Virus record (IMG/VR): IMGVR_UViG_3300030450_000604
Coordinates: 1 to 29,531 of that record
DNA length: 29,531 nt
From: a virus
Reading direction: 5' to 3' (one strand)
Positions 1 through 29,531 of this stretch are shown piece by piece; position 1 is the first letter of the stretch, and every line of letters starts with the position of its first letter. The translations under genes were made by a program, and so were the position numbers. Below the pieces are notes generated by a model. That model was not told the origin of the DNA and did no database searches. It worked only from the letters and a program-made list of their open reading frames with translations.

Positions 1-570
1 AAAGTAAAAATAAACGACATACAACCTAATTTAAAAAATCCTAGAATAATTAAAGACAGTAAGTTTAAAAAACTAGTAAAGTCAATAAAAGAATTTCCTG
101 AGATGTTAGAATTGCGACCTATTGTTGTTGATGAAAACAATTTAATACTTGGTGGTAATATGAGACACAAAGCCTGTATTGAAGCAGGACTAAAAGAAGT
201 GCCTGTTAAAATAGCAAAAGGTTTAACTGAGGAACAAAAGAAAGAATTTATAGTAAAAGATAATGTAGGTTTTGGGCAGTGGGAATGGGATATGCTTGCT
301 AATGAATGGGATAATATTAAGCTAGGGGAATGGGGTTTAGATGTATGGCAGCCAGAGGAAAGCATAAGTAATGAAAGGGATTATAGTATAAATAGTTTAG
401 ATGAAAAGCTAGGTAGGTTTTTAGACGCTAAAATTAAGAATATTACTATACCATTTGAAACTGAGGAATTTAGTAAGGTAGTAGAAAAATTAGAAATACT
501 TTTAGATAGGTATAAGTGCCAAGATTATAGGGCTTTAATATATAAAATAATAGAAAATGAAAAGGTATAA
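1..570 (+). CDS. ParB-like N-terminal domain protein, 5'-partial (version A)
   Basis: The frame is open from base 1 and starts at what is codon 2 in the second copy at 28113, so only the start codon is missing. The N-terminal two thirds look like the ParB/Srx fold seen in phage and methyltransferase-linked ParB proteins: a VDENNLILGG segment, then GGNMRHKAC, which sits where ParB proteins have the GERRxRA nucleotide-binding box, then an LTEEQKKEFIVKDN helix. A WEWDML...WGLDVWQ stretch follows, as in ParB domains fused to DNA methylases. The C-terminal 70 residues are unlike the second copy. The gene overlaps the dioxygenase by 14 bp, so the two are probably translationally coupled. Nucleotide binding or DNA targeting is inferred from the family. 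A role as a true partition protein is unlikely next to a terminase. Confidence 0.75.
   Translation, partial: KVKINDIQPNLKNPRIIKDSKFKKLVKSIKEFPEMLELRPIVVDENNLILGGNMRHKACIEAGLKEVPVKIAKGLTEEQKKEFIVKDNVGFGQWEWDMLANEWDNIKLGEWGLDVWQPEESISNERDYSINSLDEKLGRFLDAKIKNITIPFETEEFSKVVEKLEILLDRYKCQDYRALIYKIIENEKV
74..149 (+). repeat. 76-bp exact direct repeat, copy 1 (ParB coding)
   Basis: Bases 74-149 match 28189-28264 with no mismatch. The repeat lies in the ParB N-terminal domain. The sequence around it is only partly identical, with many synonymous differences, so this is the longest perfect block of a diverged duplicate. It could serve as a recombination point for swapping the cassette downstream. Confidence 0.9.
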
Positions 571-1390
571 TTTAACAAAGCACCAAGATAGCACCAAGCT
601 TTTAAAAACCACCCCACTTAAAGAACACTATGATATAGTAATAAGTGATGATACTGCTTTTTACTTAGATGATATATGTATAGGTATATATGTAAATGTA
701 GCTAAAGAACTTTTAACCTATGTAAGGGAAGCTGTAAAAGATACTAAATATGTAGAAACTTATAGGGCTAATACCCTGCCTACTAAAAGTAGTGTCTTTG
801 GTGCACTACCAAGAGTAGCACTAAGGAATGACTTTTGTAGGTTTAGTAATAAAACAAGTGAGGAAAAACAAAACACTAATAAGCTTTTTACTTTTCAAAA
901 AACATTATGCGATATATATAAAAAACACTTACCAGAACTTTACGAATATGATTTACATAAAGCAAGGGAAACCGTAAATGATGACTATAGGTTAATTGAT
1001 ACACCTTATACTACTGCTAATATAAATGTAAACCACGCTATAAAATACCATAAGGATAGTGGTAATATAAAAGAAAGCTTTAGTAATGTACTAATACTTA
1101 AAGAGCACTGCACTGGTGGTGAGTTAGTATTACCAGATTATAGAATAGCTTTAAAGCAAAGTGATGGGGCACTATGTATTTTTAGTGGGCAAAAAGAAAT
1201 ACACGGGGTAATGCCTATAAAGCCATACAAAGAGGACTTTTATAGGGCAAGCATAGTTTATTATACCTTAGCCCAGTTAGAACACTGCTACCCATATAAA
1301 CAAGAAGTAACACGCCTTAACCTTAAAAAAAGGGAAAGGGCACTTAAAAGAAAAGATAATATAGACCCTAGAACAAATGGACAAAAGTAG
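557..1390 (+). CDS. 2-oxoglutarate/Fe(II) dioxygenase, TET/JBP-like candidate
   Basis: 277 residues. The Fe(II) facial triad is visible as H165-x-D167 (YHKDSGN) and H216 (EIHGVMP). R230, 14 residues after the distal histidine, is the likely 2-oxoglutarate ligand, followed by S232. Between them lies GGELVLPDY (187-195), like the GGxLxLP segment of TET/JBP enzymes. The D-to-H spacing (49) and H-to-R spacing (14) are close to what I recall for trypanosome JBP1 and differ from prolyl hydroxylases, where the basic residue comes about 10 after the histidine. TET/JBP enzymes oxidise 5-methylcytosine or thymine in DNA. Here the gene lies between a ParB-like gene and terS, overlapping both by 14 bp. 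I see no cytosine methylase or glycosyltransferase nearby, so the substrate is open. A generic 2OG oxygenase is the alternative. Confidence 0.65.
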   Translation: MKRYNLTKHQDSTKLLKTTPLKEHYDIVISDDTAFYLDDICIGIYVNVAKELLTYVREAVKDTKYVETYRANTLPTKSSVFGALPRVALRNDFCRFSNKTSEEKQNTNKLFTFQKTLCDIYKKHLPELYEYDLHKARETVNDDYRLIDTPYTTANINVNHAIKYHKDSGNIKESFSNVLILKEHCTGGELVLPDYRIALKQSDGALCIFSGQKEIHGVMPIKPYKEDFYRASIVYYTLAQLEHCYPYKQEVTRLNLKKRERALKRKDNIDPRTNGQK

Positions 1391-1721
1391 ACACATAAAA
1401 AAGGAAGCCCTATTACAAGCTTTAGAAAAGAGTTTAGGTGTTGTAACTGTAGCATGTAAACAAGCAGACATACCACGAAGCACATATTATAAATGGTTAA
1501 AAGAAGATGAAGAATTTGCAAAGGCAGTTAAAGAAATAGAAAACATTGCATTAGATTTTGCAGAAAGTCAATTACATACACAAATGAAAGATGGTAGCAC
1601 ATCAGCTACAATATTCTATTTAAAAACAAAAGGCAAGAAACGTGGCTATGTTGAACGTAGTGAATTAGATGTAACTTCAAATAACGAAAGGATTAAAATA
1701 AATATAAACCTTGACGATTAA
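1377..1721 (+). CDS. terS: Terminase small subunit
   Basis: 114 residues. The N-terminal half is a helix-turn-helix DNA-binding domain (VVTVACKQADIPRSTYYKWL, roughly residues 22-41), followed by acidic helices (EIENIALDFAESQL) and the ATIFYLKTKGKKRGY segment common at the end of phage small terminases. TerS recognises the packaging site on phage DNA and regulates the large subunit. The start overlaps the dioxygenase by 14 bp and the end overlaps terL by 11 bp, which places it firmly in the packaging operon. A second, 5' partial copy with 6 differences in 67 residues begins at 29331. Confidence 0.85.
   Translation: MDKSRHIKKEALLQALEKSLGVVTVACKQADIPRSTYYKWLKEDEEFAKAVKEIENIALDFAESQLHTQMKDGSTSATIFYLKTKGKKRGYVERSELDVTSNNERIKININLDD
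1515..1577 (+). repeat. 63-bp exact direct repeat, copy 1 (terS coding)
   Basis: Bases 1515-1577 are identical to 29469-29531, the last 63 bases of the window. The match ends only because the window ends. This fits a contig that stops inside a repeat or at the closure point of a circular map. Confidence 0.9.
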
Positions 1722-3030
1722 AGAAATCAATGCTGAATTTACTAAAACACAAAAGGAGTGTTTAAAGTATTTGTTTGATACAAAAACAAAAGAAGTATTA
1801 TTTGGTGGTGCAGCAGGTGGTGGCAAGTCATGGGTAGGTTGTAGTTGGTTAATATTAATGTGTCTTAAATATCCAAAGACAAGGTACTTGATGGGTAGGT
1901 CAAAACTCGATAGTTTAAAAAAGACTACATTTAATTCATTTCTAGAGGTTTGTGAAACTTGGAATTTAAAAGCAGGTAAACATTATACCTTTAATGGTAG
2001 TTCTAATATGGTTACCTTTTACAATAAATCAGAAATAATACTAAAAGATTTGTTTTTATATCCATCAGACAGAAACTTTGATAACTTAGGATCTTTGGAA
2101 ATAACAGGAGCGTTCATAGACGAAGCAAATCAAATAACAGAAAAAGCTAAAAACATAGTAGCATCAAGGATGCGTTATAAATTAGATGAATTTAATATAA
2201 TACCAAAATTGTTAATGACCTGCAACCCTGCAAAGAACTGGGTGTATTCAGAATATTACAGGCCAGCAAAAGATAATACAATAAAACCCTACAGAAAGTT
2301 TATTCAAAGTTTAGTAGGGGATAACACCTACATATCAAAGCATTATGAGAAACAACTGTTTGAACTTGATGAATTAAGCAAACAAAGATTATTATATGGA
2401 AACTGGGAATATGATGCAACCAATGATAGTCTAGTAGAATATGATGCAATTCTAAATATGTTTTCACAAAAAGGAATTGAGGGGGATAAATACATAACAT
2501 GTGATGTGGCTCGTTTTGGAAGCGATAGAACGGTTATAATGCTTTGGCAAGGGTTACATATTACTTATATAAGAACGTTGCTTAAATCGGCTATAAATGA
2601 TGTTGTGGATGAAGTTAAGAGATTACAACAAGAAAATGCAGTTAATTTAAGAAATATAATTGTGGATGAAGATGGAGTGGGTGGCGGTGTTAAAGATTAT
2701 TTAAGATGTCAGGGTTTTGTAAATAATGCAAGGGCTTTGAAAAATGAGAACTATCAAAATTTAAAAACGCAATGCTATTATAAATTAGCAGAATTAATAA
2801 ACAAAGGCCAAGTGGGGATTAACTGTACTGATGTAAATGTAAAAAATTACATAATAGAAGAATGTGAACAGATAAGAATGAAAGATGCAGACAAAGATAA
2901 TAAGTTACAAATAATACCAAAGGATAATGTAAAAGCTATATTAGGTAGGTCACCTGATTACTCTGATGCTTTAGCAATGAGAATGTACTATGAAATTGAT
3001 AGTAATTTTGGTAGATATTATGTGCAATAA
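1711..3030 (+). CDS. terL: Terminase large subunit (ATPase-nuclease)
   Basis: 439 residues, normal for the family. The N-terminal ATPase domain shows Walker A GGAAGGGKS (32-40), Walker B FIDE (135-138) and a coupling motif TCNP (170-173). The C-terminal RNase H-like nuclease domain shows CDVARFGSDRT with D265, VDEDGVGGG with D319/D321, and YSDALAM with D419 as likely metal ligands. The protein powers DNA translocation into the prohead and cuts the concatemer. The start used is TTG, overlapping terS by 11 bp; the first ATG lies after Walker A, so a non-ATG start is required. A terminator-like hairpin follows the stop codon. Confidence 0.95.
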   Translation: MTIKEINAEFTKTQKECLKYLFDTKTKEVLFGGAAGGGKSWVGCSWLILMCLKYPKTRYLMGRSKLDSLKKTTFNSFLEVCETWNLKAGKHYTFNGSSNMVTFYNKSEIILKDLFLYPSDRNFDNLGSLEITGAFIDEANQITEKAKNIVASRMRYKLDEFNIIPKLLMTCNPAKNWVYSEYYRPAKDNTIKPYRKFIQSLVGDNTYISKHYEKQLFELDELSKQRLLYGNWEYDATNDSLVEYDAILNMFSQKGIEGDKYITCDVARFGSDRTVIMLWQGLHITYIRTLLKSAINDVVDEVKRLQQENAVNLRNIIVDEDGVGGGVKDYLRCQGFVNNARALKNENYQNLKTQCYYKLAELINKGQVGINCTDVNVKNYIIEECEQIRMKDADKDNKLQIIPKDNVKAILGRSPDYSDALAMRMYYEIDSNFGRYYVQ

Positions 3031-7025: not shown

Positions 7026-9796
7026 TGTCAGTACAGCTAATATTATACCCACAATTTTTTGATGGTTTAAATCCATTAAATAATTATCAGTTAGAATTTA
7101 TAATTGATGGTGCATCATTTTTAACTATAGATGGCTCTCCTTCAGTTACAGCAACACAATCAAATGCACTGCTAGATGCTCTAACTAATGCCCCGCCTGC
7201 AATACAAAACCAATGGTATAGGTTTAGAAGCTCTGATGCAGGAACTCCATCATTTCCTGAAAATTCAAGTAATAGATTAAAATTATATAAAGACACAACA
7301 GAAACAAAAAGTGGTGTATATCAAAGACTATCTAATTTAAACGTAGGGCAGGATTACACTTTAGAGGTTGTTATAAGCACAGGAACATCTGACTTCTTGG
7401 AATTAAGTGTCTATAATGGTACGACCGTGGTTCAGCAGGGTTCAGTTTCATCAGCAACTGGTACTGTTTCAATAACATTTACTGCTGCAAGCACCAATGA
7501 CATTATAGCTTTAACATATACAAATCCATCAGGAACAAGTAGTGGCCATATATTAATAGATAATATTTCAGTACAGCCAACGGGATCGCAGCCAAATTTA
7601 AATAATGGGCAGGTGTTGTTAGACGTTTATGAAGATGAAGATATTCCATTGACATTGAGTATTGATAATTTTAAAAATGTTGCAGAGAAAGTTCAATCAT
7701 ATTCAAAGGCATTTAAACTACCAGCCACTAAAAGAAACAACCAAATATTTGATAACATATTTGATATAATCAGAGCTGATGATGGTGTTGTATTTAACCC
7801 TTATAGAAAAACAAAATGTGAGGTAAAACAAAACGGGTTTATTTTAATAGAAGGTTATCTGAGATTAATAGATATAAACGAGAAAGATAATGAAACAAGT
7901 TACAATGTAAATATATATTCAGAAGTTATTGCTCTTGCAGATTTTTTAAAAGAAAAAACATTTAAAGACATAGATTTTACAGAACTAGAGCATGAGTATA
8001 CAAAAACAAATATAAAATATAGCTGGAATGATGCTACTACAGGAATAACATATTTAAACGCTAACACATCAGGCTTTAGAAATGCTTACGATACAGTTAA
8101 ATACCCTTTTGTAGACTGGGAACATAAATACTCAACCTCTTCAGCAGGCAACCCTGACATGGAAAGTTTAGGTGTGTTTTTTAGGCCGTGGCTACAAATA
8201 AAATATTTAATACAAAGGATTTTTGATGATAGCCCTTTCACATTTGAAAGTACATTTTTTGACACTACAGATTTTGAGCAGTTATATATGGATTTTAACT
8301 GGGGTGGAGAAGGGGAGCCGCATGATAATGAAGGGACAGGTACTGGAACTAATGAATCAACAACGGGTAATGTAGCAGGAACTTCATATTCTAGATTGAT
8401 ATTTGACACAGAAACATTTTCTGATGAAAGTTTAATAGGCTTTGATATTTCAAATAGTAGATTTACAGCACAATTTGATAATCAATACTATTCAGTAGAT
8501 TTTGGTTTTAGAGTTAGTTATAATGGGTTAAGTTCTCCATCAACAGCAGGGCAGACATACGGATCTGTAGTGTGGCGTGAGTTTGATAGTGGTGGTAACT
8601 TTGTTTCTGACCGTGCTTTAGTAAATCTAATTTCAACTGGGGATGGCAATACTTATGGAGGAAGGAATGTAACTGGGACTTTTTCAGCCACACTGCCAAG
8701 TGGTAATTATTTAATACCAATGTTTAAGCGTGAAAGTATAGTAACAGCACTTACACAGGTGCATGAAGGTGGTTATGGCCCTGGTATTCCTGACACAGTG
8801 GTAGTAGTAGGGCAAAAAAATATTCTAAACTCAACACTTGTAGATAATTTAAGAGGGGGGTTACAACAATGGGAATTTTTGAAAGGGATTATAAATATGT
8901 TTAATTTAGTTACAATCCCTGACAAAGACAGTCCTAATAATATTTTAATAGAACCCTATTCAGACGTATTTATTGAGCATACCAGTAGTGGCAACACATC
9001 AGATTTAACACTATCATCAAGAAGTATACAGCACGATTGGACAGAAAAAATAGATGCAAGTGAAATCAAATTGTCTCCATTAACAGATTTAAATAAAATA
9101 ACAAAATTTATATTTGCTGAAGATGAAGATGATTATGCATACTCTGTCTATAAAAGGGCTACAAGTGGTTATATGTATGGTAGTAAAGTTTTTGATGCAT
9201 CAGGATTTACTGTATTAGACGGAGACAAAGAAATAAGTGCAGAGCCATTTGCAGCAACAATACTTAAACCGCTTGAACCTCAGTATAATGATTTAATAAT
9301 ACCTACAATTTATTCTAAACAGGATGATGGATATACATCAGGGTTTGATAATAGCCCTAGAATATGTTATAATGTAGGTAAAAAAACATTGTCAAGTTGC
9401 ACCTATTCAATACCTGGCCAAAATGGCGACACAGGGAATGCAGCAGAAGATGAATTTTTGCAATTTGCACATTTAACAGATGTTCCTACAGTAATAAGTA
9501 ACCCTCCTGTGGCAACAGACACAAGAGATTTTCACTTTGGTGGGTGTCAATATTTTAAAGGTGTAGGAGAGACAGCAACAAAAAACTTATTTAATTTGTA
9601 TTGGTTGCCTTATTATGGTGAACTATACCATCCTGACACTAGAACAATGGAGGTTAAAGTTAATTTAACACCAGGAGACATAGGAACATTGAATTTGTAC
9701 GATACAGTATTTATTAAGAATAGACAATACAGAATAAACAAAATAGATTACAAGCCAAATGATTTGGCAAAAGTAGAATTTATATTAGTACCATAA
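7025..9796 (+). CDS. Baseplate/tail protein with N-terminal jelly-roll domain
   Basis: 923 residues, the longest protein in the window. Residues about 60-187 look like a carbohydrate-binding jelly roll: WYRFRSS, GVYQRLSNLNVGQDYTLEV, LELSVYNGTT, a Ser/Thr strand pair, then GHILIDNISV, the usual closing strand. After it, VYEDEDIPLTLSIDN and VQSYSKAFKLPATKRN (223-238) are characteristic of a conserved tail protein in Bacteroidota phages. The rest is long, beta-rich and contains acidic loops. It probably forms the tail tip and contacts host glycans through the N-terminal domain; the latter is inference. Confidence 0.55.
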   Translation: MSVQLILYPQFFDGLNPLNNYQLEFIIDGASFLTIDGSPSVTATQSNALLDALTNAPPAIQNQWYRFRSSDAGTPSFPENSSNRLKLYKDTTETKSGVYQRLSNLNVGQDYTLEVVISTGTSDFLELSVYNGTTVVQQGSVSSATGTVSITFTAASTNDIIALTYTNPSGTSSGHILIDNISVQPTGSQPNLNNGQVLLDVYEDEDIPLTLSIDNFKNVAEKVQSYSKAFKLPATKRNNQIFDNIFDIIRADDGVVFNPYRKTKCEVKQNGFILIEGYLRLIDINEKDNETSYNVNIYSEVIALADFLKEKTFKDIDFTELEHEYTKTNIKYSWNDATTGITYLNANTSGFRNAYDTVKYPFVDWEHKYSTSSAGNPDMESLGVFFRPWLQIKYLIQRIFDDSPFTFESTFFDTTDFEQLYMDFNWGGEGEPHDNEGTGTGTNESTTGNVAGTSYSRLIFDTETFSDESLIGFDISNSRFTAQFDNQYYSVDFGFRVSYNGLSSPSTAGQTYGSVVWREFDSGGNFVSDRALVNLISTGDGNTYGGRNVTGTFSATLPSGNYLIPMFKRESIVTALTQVHEGGYGPGIPDTVVVVGQKNILNSTLVDNLRGGLQQWEFLKGIINMFNLVTIPDKDSPNNILIEPYSDVFIEHTSSGNTSDLTLSSRSIQHDWTEKIDASEIKLSPLTDLNKITKFIFAEDEDDYAYSVYKRATSGYMYGSKVFDASGFTVLDGDKEISAEPFAATILKPLEPQYNDLIIPTIYSKQDDGYTSGFDNSPRICYNVGKKTLSSCTYSIPGQNGDTGNAAEDEFLQFAHLTDVPTVISNPPVATDTRDFHFGGCQYFKGVGETATKNLFNLYWLPYYGELYHPDTRTMEVKVNLTPGDIGTLNLYDTVFIKNRQYRINKIDYKPNDLAKVEFILVP

Positions 9797-17536: not shown

Positions 17537-19690
17537 ATGAATGATAAAATACTTTCAATCAATTTAGAAACGCAAACTGCTCCAATAATACAAGAAGTAC
17601 GTGGAAAGGATTACGTGGAATACGGCACTGAGGAGTGGAAAAACCTCTATCCACAATTCTTAATTGACCTTTACTATAATAGCTCGACACATGCAGCGAT
17701 TATTAATTCTACCGCAGAAATGATTGCAGGGGAGGATATATTCATAGAGGAGGAGGATGATACTAATTTGGAAATGTATGTTAAATTAAAGAAGTTTTTT
17801 AGGCATGCAAATGGCAAAGAAAGTTTACATCAGATAATTAAAAAACTAGCTTTTGATTTTAAGCTACAAGGAGGTTACGCAATACATTGTATTTGGAATG
17901 TAGAAAAAACAGAAATCGCTGAGATATACCACGTTCCAGTCGAAAGGGTTCGTGCAGGGCGACCAAATGAAATGGGTGTTATTGATACTTACTATATTAG
18001 TGCAGACTGGAGTAATCCTAGAGAACATAAACCTTATCCTATTGCAGCATTCAATACAAAAGACAGAACGGCTGCAAGTCAATTATTATATACAGGTTCT
18101 TATAGCCCTAACATGGACGTTTACCACACACCTGATTACTTAGCTGGTTGTAACTGGGCTTTGGTAGATCAGAAGGTAGCAGAGTTCCATTTGTCGAATA
18201 TAGAAAATGGCTTCTCAGGGAGTTACTTCATATCCTTTGCGAATGGCGTCCCGACACAGGAGGAGCGTCAGCAAATCGAAAGAAGTTTAAAAGAGAAATT
18301 CACTGGGGCTAAGAACAGTGGTAAATTCATTCTTACGTTCAGTGACGACAAAACAAGAACTCCTGAAATAACACCAATTAGTGTAAGTGATGCAGACAAA
18401 CAATACTTAGCATTACAAGAACTTCTCGTGCAGAACATCCTCACAGCTCATAGGGTGACTTCTAAGACACTTATGGGTATTGACAGCACTAATGGGTTCA
18501 GTTCGAATACAGACGAGCTTATAAACGCTGCAAATTTTTATGTACAAACTGTTGTAAGACCATTCCAACTAAATATACTTGATACTTTACAAACTATATT
18601 CTCAGTAAATAATATAGATTTGGAGGTTGGATTTGTACAATTAAAACCAATCACAGTACAATTTGATTCTGTAACAGTGAGGGAAGTTATGACACAGGAT
18701 GAAATCCGTGAGGACTTAGGGTTACCTCCATTAGTAACAAAAGAGAAAAATGAAACGACTGATGCTCTTTCTACCATGTCTCCTTTACTTGCAAACAAAG
18801 TATTAAATAATTTAACACTAGATGAAACTAGAGACCTTATTGGTTTACCATCTATTGATCCTAGCGAGTTACCACAAGAAACAGAAGAAACAGGTGATGT
18901 TGCCATGTGCAGAACTGATGAACCAATACCTAGAAAAAAGAAGTTTAATAAGGTGGGTATGATTGATGGAAAACCTGTTTTTAGTACATCAGCAGAAGCT
19001 GAAGAGCATGCAAAAACTTTAGGATGCACAGGTTATCACGAACATGAATACGAAGGAGAAACTGTTTATATGGCATGTGAAGGCCATAGTGAAGCAACTG
19101 AATTATCTAAATTTATTGCAGAATTTGGAGAGGATGCACCACATGGTTATGTTTTACTAGACCAAGAAATGGTAGAAAATGAGGATGAAGATTTTGATTT
19201 TGAAGGCAGGTTAAATGATATTGTAAACAAAAAATATAATTTTATTTCTACAGGTAGGGCAAATCCAAATGCTAGAGATGATGAAGATGGATTAAATAAA
19301 AGTGAAACTGCTTTTTTTAAAGTAAGATACAGATACACACAAATATCAAAAAATCCAAAAGGGAGTTCAAGGGACTTTTGCAGGGCTATGATTTCAGCAG
19401 ATAAGCTGTATAGAAAACGTGATATTATAAATATGGGTAGTAAAGCGGTAAATCCAGGTTTCGGGCCTAGGGGTGCAGATACGTATTCAATTTGGGATTA
19501 CAAAGGAGGTGGAGCATGTTACCATTTTTGGTTGAGAGAGGTTTATCAGGCAGACCCTACAGATGATAATTTTGTTTACTACCCTGATAATATAGACACA
19601 GATAAATTAATAAAAGAAGTAAAGGCAGAGGGAGATGCTGGAACAGCTCCAATTAACATGCCTAATGAAGCATTTTTAGAACCAAGATAA
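17537..19690 (+). CDS. Portal protein with fused C-terminal domains
   Basis: 717 residues. Residues 20-400 look like a portal: TEEWKNLYPQFLIDLYYNSS, STHAAIINSTAEMIAG, LQGGYAIHCIW, IYHVPVERVRAG, LYTGSYSPNMDVYHTP and VTSKTLMGI with NGFSSNTDEL. The remainder is extra: a Cys/His segment at 468-518 (GCTGYHEHEYEGETVYMACEGH) and a terminal domain at 593-672 with SSRDFCRAMISADKLYRKRDI and a GGACYHFW motif. The family's usual length is 400-500, so about 250 residues are added. Internal head delivery or a maturation partner is possible; the function is unknown. Confidence 0.75.
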   Translation: MNDKILSINLETQTAPIIQEVRGKDYVEYGTEEWKNLYPQFLIDLYYNSSTHAAIINSTAEMIAGEDIFIEEEDDTNLEMYVKLKKFFRHANGKESLHQIIKKLAFDFKLQGGYAIHCIWNVEKTEIAEIYHVPVERVRAGRPNEMGVIDTYYISADWSNPREHKPYPIAAFNTKDRTAASQLLYTGSYSPNMDVYHTPDYLAGCNWALVDQKVAEFHLSNIENGFSGSYFISFANGVPTQEERQQIERSLKEKFTGAKNSGKFILTFSDDKTRTPEITPISVSDADKQYLALQELLVQNILTAHRVTSKTLMGIDSTNGFSSNTDELINAANFYVQTVVRPFQLNILDTLQTIFSVNNIDLEVGFVQLKPITVQFDSVTVREVMTQDEIREDLGLPPLVTKEKNETTDALSTMSPLLANKVLNNLTLDETRDLIGLPSIDPSELPQETEETGDVAMCRTDEPIPRKKKFNKVGMIDGKPVFSTSAEAEEHAKTLGCTGYHEHEYEGETVYMACEGHSEATELSKFIAEFGEDAPHGYVLLDQEMVENEDEDFDFEGRLNDIVNKKYNFISTGRANPNARDDEDGLNKSETAFFKVRYRYTQISKNPKGSSRDFCRAMISADKLYRKRDIINMGSKAVNPGFGPRGADTYSIWDYKGGGACYHFWLREVYQADPTDDNFVYYPDNIDTDKLIKEVKAEGDAGTAPINMPNEAFLEPR

Positions 19691-27002: not shown

Positions 27003-27398
27003 ATGAAATTTTTTGTAGCAGACGAAATATATCAAGACAGGATAGAGATATGTAAGTCTTGTATTTATTATTTTAAACCAACGGGCACTTGTAAGGATTG
27101 CGGTTGTTTTATGAAAATCAAGGCACGTTTAGCACCAATGGGGTGTGGTCAAGGAAAATGGGAAAAAACCACAAAAACACATACACCTGATGATCTGCCA
27201 CAGGAAATAATAAATGAAATAATAGACCTATGGCCTGACTTAAAAACAGGTAGAGCAAAAAATCAAACAGCAAAAAAAAGGATGATTGAAACATACAACA
27301 CAATACATGGCACTGATTATTCAACAGGAACTAATTGCGGTTCTTGTATATCAACCTGCTTTGATGCAATAAAAAGATTATACGAAAAATACAAATAA
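27003..27398 (+). CDS. Zinc-ribbon hypothetical protein
   Basis: 131 residues. C17 and C20 (ICKSC) with C30 and C33 (CKDCGCF) form a zinc-ribbon-like pair, with C48 in MGCGQGKW. A second cysteine cluster NCGSCISTC lies near the C-terminus. Small Cys-rich proteins of this shape recur in flavobacterial phages; the function is unknown. Nucleic acid or protein binding is plausible. Confidence 0.5.
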   Translation: MKFFVADEIYQDRIEICKSCIYYFKPTGTCKDCGCFMKIKARLAPMGCGQGKWEKTTKTHTPDDLPQEIINEIIDLWPDLKTGRAKNQTAKKRMIETYNTIHGTDYSTGTNCGSCISTCFDAIKRLYEKYK

Positions 27399-28112: not shown

Positions 28113-28649
28113 ATGAAAGTAAAAATAAACTCAATACAATCTAATTTAAAAAATCCACGTATTATTAAGGATAATAAGTTTAAAAAATTAGTAAAGTCAA
28201 TAAAAGAATTTCCTGAGATGTTAGAATTGCGACCTATTGTTGTTGATGAAAACAATTTAATACTAGGTGGTAATATGAGGCATAAAGCATGTATAGAAGC
28301 AGGTTTAAAAGAAGTGCCAATAAAAATTGCAAAAGGGTTAACAATAGAACAAAAGCAAGAATTTATAATAAAAGATAATGTAGGATTTGGAGAATGGGAG
28401 TGGGATATTTTAAGTAATGAATGGAATAGTGTTCAGCTTTCTGAATGGGGTTTAGATGTTTGGCAAAATGAAGATGATTTAGAAGAACCTTTATTTGATG
28501 AATTAACTGAAGAAAATAAAAACAAACCATTTGTAATAAAAATAACATTTGCTAATATTAATGATTTGCAAAATGCAGAAAAAGAAATTGCACAAATAGT
28601 AAATAAATATAATAAAGCAATTTATTCAGTAAGTGCAGGTGAATTATGA
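28113..28649 (+). CDS. ParB-like N-terminal domain protein (version B)
   Basis: 178 residues, complete. Residues 2-118 differ from the version-A copy at 15 of 117 places (about 87% identical by eye). Nucleotide differences include many silent ones, so the two are diverged alleles rather than sequencing error. The C-terminal 60 residues (NEDDLEEPLFDELTE; KPFVIKITFANINDLQNAEK) have no visible similarity to version A. It overlaps the Mom-like gene by 4 bp. The ParB box is GGNMRHKAC as in version A. A shared nucleotide- or DNA-binding N-terminal part with a swappable C-terminal part is suggested. Confidence 0.75.
   Translation: MKVKINSIQSNLKNPRIIKDNKFKKLVKSIKEFPEMLELRPIVVDENNLILGGNMRHKACIEAGLKEVPIKIAKGLTIEQKQEFIIKDNVGFGEWEWDILSNEWNSVQLSEWGLDVWQNEDDLEEPLFDELTEENKNKPFVIKITFANINDLQNAEKEIAQIVNKYNKAIYSVSAGEL
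28189..28264 (+). repeat. 76-bp exact direct repeat, copy 2
   Basis: Identical to 74-149 within the ParB N-terminal domain. See the first copy. Confidence 0.9.
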
Positions 28650-29260
28650 TATTAAAAAAAGCATCATATAAAGCAATTAAATATGCTTGTATTAAATTTC
28701 ATTATGCGAAAAGTGTGCCTGTTAATGTATTTGGATATTCAGTATTTAATAAAAAAAATGAATGGTGTGGAGTTATTTTATATGGAACAGGTGCAAATTT
28801 AGAATTAGCTAAACCATATAATTTAAAACAAGGTCAAGCAATAGAATTAGTCAGAATGGCATTAAACGGAAAACAAGAAAGTACTAGCAAAGCACTTTCA
28901 TTAAGTTTAAAATTAATAAAAAAAAATTTACCTTTATGTAAAATTATAATCAGTTATGCTGATATTGACCAAGACCACGCAGGCATAATATATCAAGCAA
29001 CAAATTGGATATATGAAGGTGAATTTAACAAAGGAAGAGTTTCAGGTTTTTTAATAAAAGGAAAAAAAGTACATAACAAAACTATATATGGAAAAGGAGT
29101 AAAACAAAATTTAGAAAGTGTAAGAAAATATATTGATGCAAATGCAGAAAAATATATAACAAAAGGCAAAAGGAAATACGTATATCCTTTAACAAAAAAA
29201 TTAAAAGATATGTGTTTAGAATTTAAAAAACCTTACCCTAAAAATGCGAGTAAAGCATAA
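28646..29260 (+). CDS. mom: Mom-like DNA-modification protein
   Basis: 204 residues, close to phage Mu Mom (about 231). H19-Y20 (FHYAKSVP), a strand with WCGVILYGTGANLELAKPYN, ELVRMALNG (67-75), then SYADIDQDHAGIIYQATNW (103-121) with YEGE follow the Mom family pattern (GNAT-like fold with a conserved H-Y near the start and YAD...H.G.IYQAxN.xY.G near the middle). In Mu, Mom adds a carbamoylmethyl group to adenine N6 and protects DNA from restriction. I see no com gene or methylase nearby. It occupies the place that the dioxygenase has at the other end of the window, which is the striking point. Confidence 0.75.
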   Translation: MILKKASYKAIKYACIKFHYAKSVPVNVFGYSVFNKKNEWCGVILYGTGANLELAKPYNLKQGQAIELVRMALNGKQESTSKALSLSLKLIKKNLPLCKIIISYADIDQDHAGIIYQATNWIYEGEFNKGRVSGFLIKGKKVHNKTIYGKGVKQNLESVRKYIDANAEKYITKGKRKYVYPLTKKLKDMCLEFKKPYPKNASKA

Positions 29261-29317
29261 AGAGTAATGTGCTAGTCATTCCAGACTAGAGAAGGGGTGC
29301 AATTCCACCTACTCGCT
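29246..29317 (+). ncRNA. tRNA-like element (degenerate, Gly-like) between mom and terS
   Basis: Perfect 7-bp acceptor-type stem: GCGAGTA (29246-29252) with TACTCGC (29310-29316), then T. Inside: GCAT/ATGT (D-stem-like), CTAGTC/GACTAG (29272-29277 with 29284-29289) and GGTG/CACC (29296-29299 with 29306-29309). The total is 72 nt, the length of a tRNA. The loop ATTCCA holds TTCCA, like the tRNA-Gly(UCC) anticodon loop, but the loop is 6-8 nt, the D-loop lacks GG, and the T-loop is TGCAATT instead of TTCAATT. The 5' arm overlaps the end of the Mom-like gene. A compact alternative uses GAGTA (29262-29266) as the outer stem. Probably a degenerate or tRNA-like structured RNA; a working tRNA is doubtful. 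Confidence 0.4.
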
Positions 29318-29330
29318 CAAAATATAAATT

Positions 29331-29531
29331 ATGAACAAAAGTAGACACATAAAAAAAGAAACAATATTAAAAGCATTAGAGAACAGTTTAGGTGTTGTAA
29401 CTGTAGCATGCAAACAGGCAGACATACCAAGAAGCACATATTACAAGTGGTTAAAAGAAGATCAAGAGTTTGCAAAGGCAGTTAAAGAAATAGAAAACAT
29501 TGCATTAGATTTTGCAGAAAGTCAATTACAT
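29331..29531 (+). CDS. terS: Terminase small subunit, second copy, 3'-partial
   Basis: 67 residues reach the window edge. Compared with the copy at 1377 they differ at 6 of 67 positions (D/N2, A/T11, L/I12, Q/K14, K/N18 and E/Q45), all conservative or in variable positions, and the HTH is unchanged. It follows the tRNA-like element by 14 bp. The last 63 bases are identical to 1515-1577. Confidence 0.85.
   Translation, partial: MNKSRHIKKETILKALENSLGVVTVACKQADIPRSTYYKWLKEDQEFAKAVKEIENIALDFAESQLH
29469..29531 (+). repeat. 63-bp exact direct repeat, copy 2 (window end)
   Basis: Identical to 1515-1577. The match is open-ended at the window edge. Confidence 0.9.

Follow-up and report, generated by a model that had tools for sequence, protein, structure and literature searches.

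A putative interchangeable cassette of a ParB-like protein and a DNA-modifying enzyme upstream of the small terminase gene, mostly in Bacteroidota phages

Does a phage contig with two DNA-modifying enzymes come from a genome that makes two modifications, or from one locus present in two versions, and what is then exchanged between the versions? The question is raised by the virus record IMGVR_UViG_3300030450_000604, analysed here as a whole (29,531 bases, hereafter the window), in which a gene for a ParB-like protein, an enzyme gene and the gene for the small terminase subunit (TerS) follow one another at both ends, with a TET/JBP-like enzyme on the left and a Mom-like enzyme on the right (Table 1). 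The window amounts to approximately 1.05 genome lengths of a phage of about 28 kb and contains terminase, portal, protease and tail-type genes. Its large terminase subunit (TerL) is related to those of Cellulophaga phage phi10:1 (51.6% identity) and Flavobacterium phage 11b (52.5%), and most bacterial contigs that encode this ParB domain belong to Bacteroidota, which makes Flavobacteriia or close relatives of theirs the probable hosts. The explanation that best accounts for the whole, and that we regard as likely, is an interchangeable two-part modification cassette located directly upstream of TerS in a wide range of environmental phages, mostly those of Bacteroidota.

Table 1 Features at the two ends of the window
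Feature	Position	Strand	Basis and remarks
ParB-like protein, TET-type	1..570	+	ParB_N E=3.6e-07; first codon missing; 1-350 N-domain common to both alleles, 351-570 tail restricted to TET cassettes
TET/JBP family 2-oxoglutarate/Fe(II) dioxygenase	557..1390	+	PF12851 Tet_JBP E=1.8e-18
TerS, left copy	1377..1721	+	PHROG terminase small subunit E=2.6e-09; overlaps TET end by 14 nt
TerL	1711..3030	+	PF04466 E=3.9e-15; used as census anchor for the neighbouring slot
ParB-like protein, Mom-type	28113..28649	+	ParB_N E=8.7e-07; 28113-28465 N-domain common to both alleles, 28466-28649 tail restricted to Mom cassettes
Mom family DNA adenine modification enzyme, predicted	28646..29260	+	PF25680 E=3.6e-35; phrog_1384 E=1.4e-44
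TerS, right copy, first 67 codons	29331..29531	+	92% identity to 1377-1577; contig end cuts gene

The left enzyme product scores 66.8 bits against the Tet_JBP family (curated cut-off 34.9), and H165, D167, H216 and R230 of its HxD...H...R pattern, the iron and 2-oxoglutarate ligands, are invariant in 29 TET relatives, whose joint profile matches TET2, CMD1 and CcTET in the PDB. The right product reaches 121.9 bits against the Mom family (curated cut-off 27.1), and the Mom profile matches Mom itself in the PDB (8bv8, E=7e-30). Each enzyme gene starts inside its ParB-like gene, with an overlap of 14 nt for TET and of 4 nt (ATGA) for Mom. An earlier note on this DNA had the coordinates and gene identities right at both ends, as judged by Pfam, PHROG and end-to-end alignment, and its view of the left enzyme as a DNA-acting dioxygenase withstood the profile search it had named as a possible refutation. 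Given that Pfam, catalytic residues and PDB profile matches converge on TET, two PHROG labels for this gene, phrog_6059 ('queuine tRNA-ribosyltransferase') and phrog_2297 ('DNA endonuclease'), were dropped. NCBIfam and PADLOC searches of the slot enzymes gave nothing decisive. No C5-methyltransferase was found in the window record and few occur in other TET records, so the target of the window TET may be thymine, as for JBP or in the proposal for phage Tonitrus, or 5mC made by the host.

The two ends are 87% identical in the ParB N-domain (1-300 versus 28116-28415) and similarly close in TerS. By BLAST the left homology extends over 1-350 and 28116-28465, and none was found between the two enzyme regions of the window ends. 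The duplicated flanks are spaced 28,115 and 27,954 b, that is, one genome length for this type of phage, and relatives of 28-30 kb have a single ParB and a single TerS, save where contigs overlap at their ends or are over-long. Because of this spacing and the single copies in relatives, the window ends are most likely two alleles of one locus, from two strains (86-92% identical) that were co-assembled. The claim of 'same locus, two modification enzymes' in the earlier note therefore holds for the locus, with the qualification that the enzymes most likely belong to two strains joined in one contig.

The same arrangement, two alleles one genome length apart, recurs in two more contigs (G015 and G032), and each allele type also occurs singly, TET in L117, L164 and others and Mom in L073, L009 and others, which argues against a chance product in the window. 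G015 has two different TAGT-type glycosyltransferases as alleles. G032, with a TerL 26-31% similar to that of the window, is 52 kb long and passes 1.5 times round its map; the passes overlap for ~17 kb at 78-97% identity except in the slot, which holds ParB and TET at 7202-8600 versus ParB and a C5-methyltransferase at 42760-44323. This second pass shows that such contigs wrap round a circular or concatemeric map. In the window, G015 and G032 alike, homology ends at ParB codon 115-117. The two-allele contigs seem to join strains of a single sample in one assembly, and the safe wording is alleles in related coexisting phages. A further contig with ParB at both ends (G043) was left uncounted, since its 143-b overlap at 99.3% identity is an ordinary circular overlap.

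The ParB-like proteins of the window are 178-189 aa long and consist of the N-domain and a short tail, with no further domain matched. Both ORFs exceed the ParB_N cut-off and the GGNMR motif is invariant. A structure model of the Mom-type protein retrieves, by Foldseek, the CTP-binding N-domains of ParB (7bnr, 7bm8 and 6t1f) and next sulfiredoxin; the predicted fold and the GGxxR-type motif place the protein in the ParB/Srx superfamily. CTPase ParBs carry ENxxR at the box that follows this motif. Here the box reads KDN(V) instead, so CTPase activity may be lost. A partition function was rejected, given that the protein is an N-domain without the HTH and C-terminal dimerisation domains, and it falls far short of the cut-off for full-length partition models. 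Models of the tails have low to moderate confidence (block pLDDT 47-87).

To see what fills the slot between ParB and TerS, loci were gathered by scans with TerL, ParB (full length and N-domain) and TET, giving 170 ParB loci after deduplication, of which 167 were labelled. They were picked by similarity to the window proteins, and the counts that follow are not population frequencies: TET in 38 loci, Mom in 36, TET-associated glycosyltransferase (TAGT, PF20691) in 33, N6/N4-methyltransferase fused to ParB in 29 (all with the motif [DNS]PP[YFW]), ABC-ATPase plus GNAT in 13, a family designated fam310 in five, C5-methyltransferase in three, GT1 in two, D12 methyltransferase in one and a DpdA/QueC/QueD/QueE/FolE set in one, with one further such locus recognised by direct reading. 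Mom occurs in a short and a long form and TAGT in two forms, some slots have NAD epimerase or FkbM genes in addition, and TET was not found in the TAGT-only records examined. TerS marks the end of the slot also in loci that have a different type of TerS. Judged by their sequences, the fillers in these related loci are nearly always known or predicted DNA modifiers, which bears out the suggestion of a swappable slot for DNA modification beside the packaging gene and goes against the second refuting outcome named in the earlier note, unrelated genes in the slot. The 'hyper' of the hypermodification proposed in the earlier note is too strong, given that some fillers are plain methyltransferases, and a few (fam310, c39 and c55) show no recognisable function.

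The slot is not universal, since approximately 50 of the 80 closest TerL relatives have no ParB upstream in the fetched sequence, many with a 127-aa gene instead. The named phages nearest in TerL (phi10:1, 11b and P12002L) have no annotated ParB cassette by TerS/TerL. ParB stands beside a modification enzyme in the named phages BS-TP3 (of Bacteroides), LE3 (of Leptospira biflexa), Tonitrus and Serendipitous.

Several loci of the census merit separate mention. The fam310 proteins (307-310 aa; L062:6736-7668, also L065, L142, L145 and L146) have no Pfam, PHROG, NCBIfam or PDB profile match and show GT-B-like motifs by eye; their location makes them a candidate for a new DNA-modifying enzyme. The ABC-ATPase plus GNAT filler is a protein of 359 aa (L003:871-1950 and relatives), part of whose ATPase region matches the PADLOC model mads_3 (E=1e-10). 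Compact, nearly complete phage 7-deazaguanine pathways lie behind ParB and before TerS in L218 (contig G014, with its ParB in L217) and L261:5582-9083, with DpdA-like (phrog_887), QueC and FolE matches and a QueE-like radical SAM protein in both and a QueD-type PTPS in L218, where QueC carries a fused glutamine amidotransferase-like domain. In L151:6189-6716 a SET-domain protein (PF00856, E=4.7e-09) stands between TAGT and TerS; such domains mostly belong to protein methyltransferases. A contig from a Winogradskyella MAG (Bacteroidota, L305:1274-2109) encodes a 151-aa ParB and, directly behind it, an ORF the size of TerS; with no enzyme between the two, the slot is apparently empty.

The pairing of ParB and enzyme is near-obligate. 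A TET-anchored search found ParB directly upstream in all 45 cases with upstream sequence, usually with an overlap of 14 nt, and a Mom-anchored search found a ParB-like gene directly upstream in 75 of 76, in 67 of them a ParB_N-like gene (63 with an overlap of exactly 4 nt). In eight of the remaining nine, a more divergent ParB/Srx-like ORF precedes mom and overlaps its start by 4 nt, five of these ORFs having been scanned against PHROGs and the other three sharing the start sequence of a scanned one. Each enzyme type has its own typical ParB length and frame overlap.

Moreover, the ParB tail matches the enzyme. With the tail taken as residue 125 onward in pairwise comparison, similarity was seen in 1117 of the 1445 pairs that share an enzyme type and in 35 of the 7871 that do not (26 of these 35 pair a short with a long Mom), a contrast that does not depend on the selection of loci by similarity to the window. 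The nearest tail belongs to the same enzyme in 124 of 133 cases, compared with 57 of 137 for the nearest N-domain, and when close relatives are left out the N-domain figure is 28 of 137 versus 21 by shuffling. Identity per position in ParB is equal for same- and different-enzyme pairs through W112-D115, after which it is 5-8% in different-enzyme pairs. On these alignments, the exchanged unit is the ParB C-terminal tail (from codon ~116) together with the enzyme. The earlier note was right that the enzyme is swapped and that the ParB N-domain and TerS are shared between the alleles; it had the enzyme move by itself, and the tail changes with it.

Alternative alleles are found on closely related backbones, and one case suggests recent exchange. 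Compared with the window at the nucleotide level, L164 has 88-95% identity in ParB tail plus TET, 77-86% in the ParB N-domain and 59-86% in TerL, the flanks outside the 5' part of TerS also being at 59-86%; at the protein level, TET is 98% identical, TerS 79% and TerL 77%. Similar TET cassettes adjoin TerL proteins with little similarity (L152, L184 and L187). Nearest neighbours in TerS share the enzyme type in 14 of 37 cases versus 4.4 by shuffling, and this memory of enzyme type indicates that backbones and cassettes are partly linked. The idea that the 5' region of TerS is a pac site or recombination arm was dropped because there is no extra synonymous-site conservation, identity at fourfold sites being 36-60% there and, similarly, 45-60% in TerL.

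Two other readings of the locus need to be weighed. The presence of both alleles on a single contig could mean that one genome has a genuine second copy of the locus and that one phage makes both modifications. We consider this most improbable, because the copies lie exactly one genome length apart, near-complete relatives have one ParB and one TerS with exceptions that are end overlaps or over-long contigs, and G032 goes on to carry ~17 kb of a second genome pass. The locus could also be an ordinary hypervariable accessory hotspot, in which modification genes are one of many classes of cargo; terminase-adjacent genes are often variable, some fillers (fam310, c39 and c55) show no recognisable function, and one slot has an extra SET-domain gene and others have sugar-modifying genes. 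We nevertheless consider an ordinary hotspot very unlikely: nearly all of the 170 ParB-anchored loci hold known or predicted DNA modifiers, with a tail that matches the enzyme and a frame overlap fixed for each type, and searches with TET and Mom, which are not anchored on ParB, still retrieve ParB.

In the two-part cassette as we picture it, the first part would be a ParB/Srx-fold protein with a constant N-domain, likely nucleotide- and DNA-binding, and a partner-specific C-terminal tail, and the second the enzyme, TET on one allele and Mom on the other, with translation probably coupled through the overlapping frame. Docked to the tail, the enzyme would be loaded or positioned on phage DNA by the N-domain. 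Homologous recombination at the ParB N-domain and the TerS region would let related phages exchange tail and enzyme as a unit. The predicted products are modified bases, an N6-modified adenine for Mom and an oxidised pyrimidine for TET, which may shield phage DNA against nucleases. Many alleles could then persist under the pressure of diverse restriction or modification-dependent defences. Host restriction, invoked in the earlier note, is a plausible driver of the swapping, and cassette exchange probably lets these phages change their chemical camouflage against host defences. A more general reading, which we put forward tentatively and hold at somewhat less than even confidence, is that the ParB-fold protein serves as a general adaptor whose tail can be exchanged, bringing chemically unrelated modifying enzymes to phage DNA and permitting a change of chemistry through a single recombination step. 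With similar reserve, these enzymes would include oxygenase, acyltransferase, glycosyltransferase, methyltransferase and base exchanger, and delivery may perhaps be coupled to packaging, as the place before TerS hints.

The match of tail and enzyme might instead reflect linkage only, if each cassette descended once and spread, so that tails agree with enzymes without any functional matching. Every tail type could indeed go back to a single ancestral junction, and within a type tails diverge along with enzymes. We consider this unlikely, because N-domains have been reshuffled relative to tails to near randomness, which means that recombination could have parted tail from enzyme too and did not, and because homology falls at a domain edge, not at a gene edge. 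It is equally unlikely, in our judgement, that the ParB-like protein acts on the enzyme as a regulator or nuclease, limiting or triggering it in the way suggested for DndB, with the tail only tuning regulation. DndB, a ParB-superfamily protein encoded beside phosphorothioation genes, has been proposed to regulate negatively or to act as an effector that degrades nucleotides (PMC10853773, PMC12839542); the same two sources also cite nuclease and NTPase activities of ParB/Srx proteins. A regulator does not require fusion to the enzyme or an enzyme-matched tail, however, and the in-frame ParB-methyltransferase fusions at 29 of the 167 labelled loci favour a role as a subunit; the ParB-like DpdB is moreover described as an ATPase partner for base insertion (PMC12839542). 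Given that ParB occurs fused to methyltransferases and that DpdB is the partner of DpdA, the likeliest role is that of a partner that engages DNA and docks the enzyme through its tail.

Parts of this arrangement are already known, namely ParB-methyltransferase fusions, ParBc near CmoX and ParB-TET in actinophages. As in 29 loci here, ParB_N is attached to a modifying enzyme in the phage fusions of phrog_498, and it lies beside a DNA-modifying enzyme in the case of CmoX, where the function of ParBc is stated as unknown (PMC12783734). By comparison, the present loci combine one ParB N-domain with many unrelated chemistries, a fixed site before TerS and an enzyme-specific tail. The actinophage thymidine clusters (Tonitrus, for which thymidine hypermodification is proposed, PMC11955845, and mycobacteriophage Serendipitous) likewise have a ParB-like gene upstream of TET/JBP near the terminase end, but add a kinase and aGPT-Pplase, whereas the window cassette has TET alone, with Mom on the other allele. 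In Dpd, a ParB-like protein (DpdB) is the partner of the base-modifying DpdA, as DpdA-like and Que genes stand behind ParB at two loci here; Dpd, however, is a many-gene bacterial restriction-modification island, in contrast to a phage cassette with a short ParB, and the window itself has no Dpd genes. The Mom of the window is of the same family and fold as that of phage Mu (8bv8), but is coupled to a ParB-like gene and placed before TerS. A GNAT with an ABC-ATPase has been predicted as a DNA base acyl-modification system (Iyer et al. 2013, as cited in PMC7824862); here this architecture is one interchangeable filler, following a ParB with its own tail type. An interchangeable pre-TerS cassette with enzyme-matched ParB tails was not found in the papers searched; parts of the arrangement may be mentioned in Lee et al. 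2021 and in Iyer et al. 2013, from which earlier observations on TET and ABC-GNAT neighbourhoods probably stem.

A vague association of ParB with methyltransferases thus becomes a testable rule of constant ParB N-domain, enzyme-matched tail and interchangeable enzyme, and offers some insight into how phage DNA chemistry diversifies quickly. It can also guide the search for new phage DNA modifications, in that a gene between this ParB and TerS is probably a modifier, fam310 and ABC-GNAT included, and it supplies biochemists with a natural collection of tail-enzyme pairs, both matched and mismatched.

Elsewhere in the window, the portal gene (17537-19690) has a long C-terminal extension with a DUF3721 match at residues 482-517. 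The gene at 27003-27398 encodes a protein whose Cys-rich N-terminus is DUF6171-like and whose C-terminal half is different, and is kept upstream of ParB in three relatives (L214, L215 and L216).
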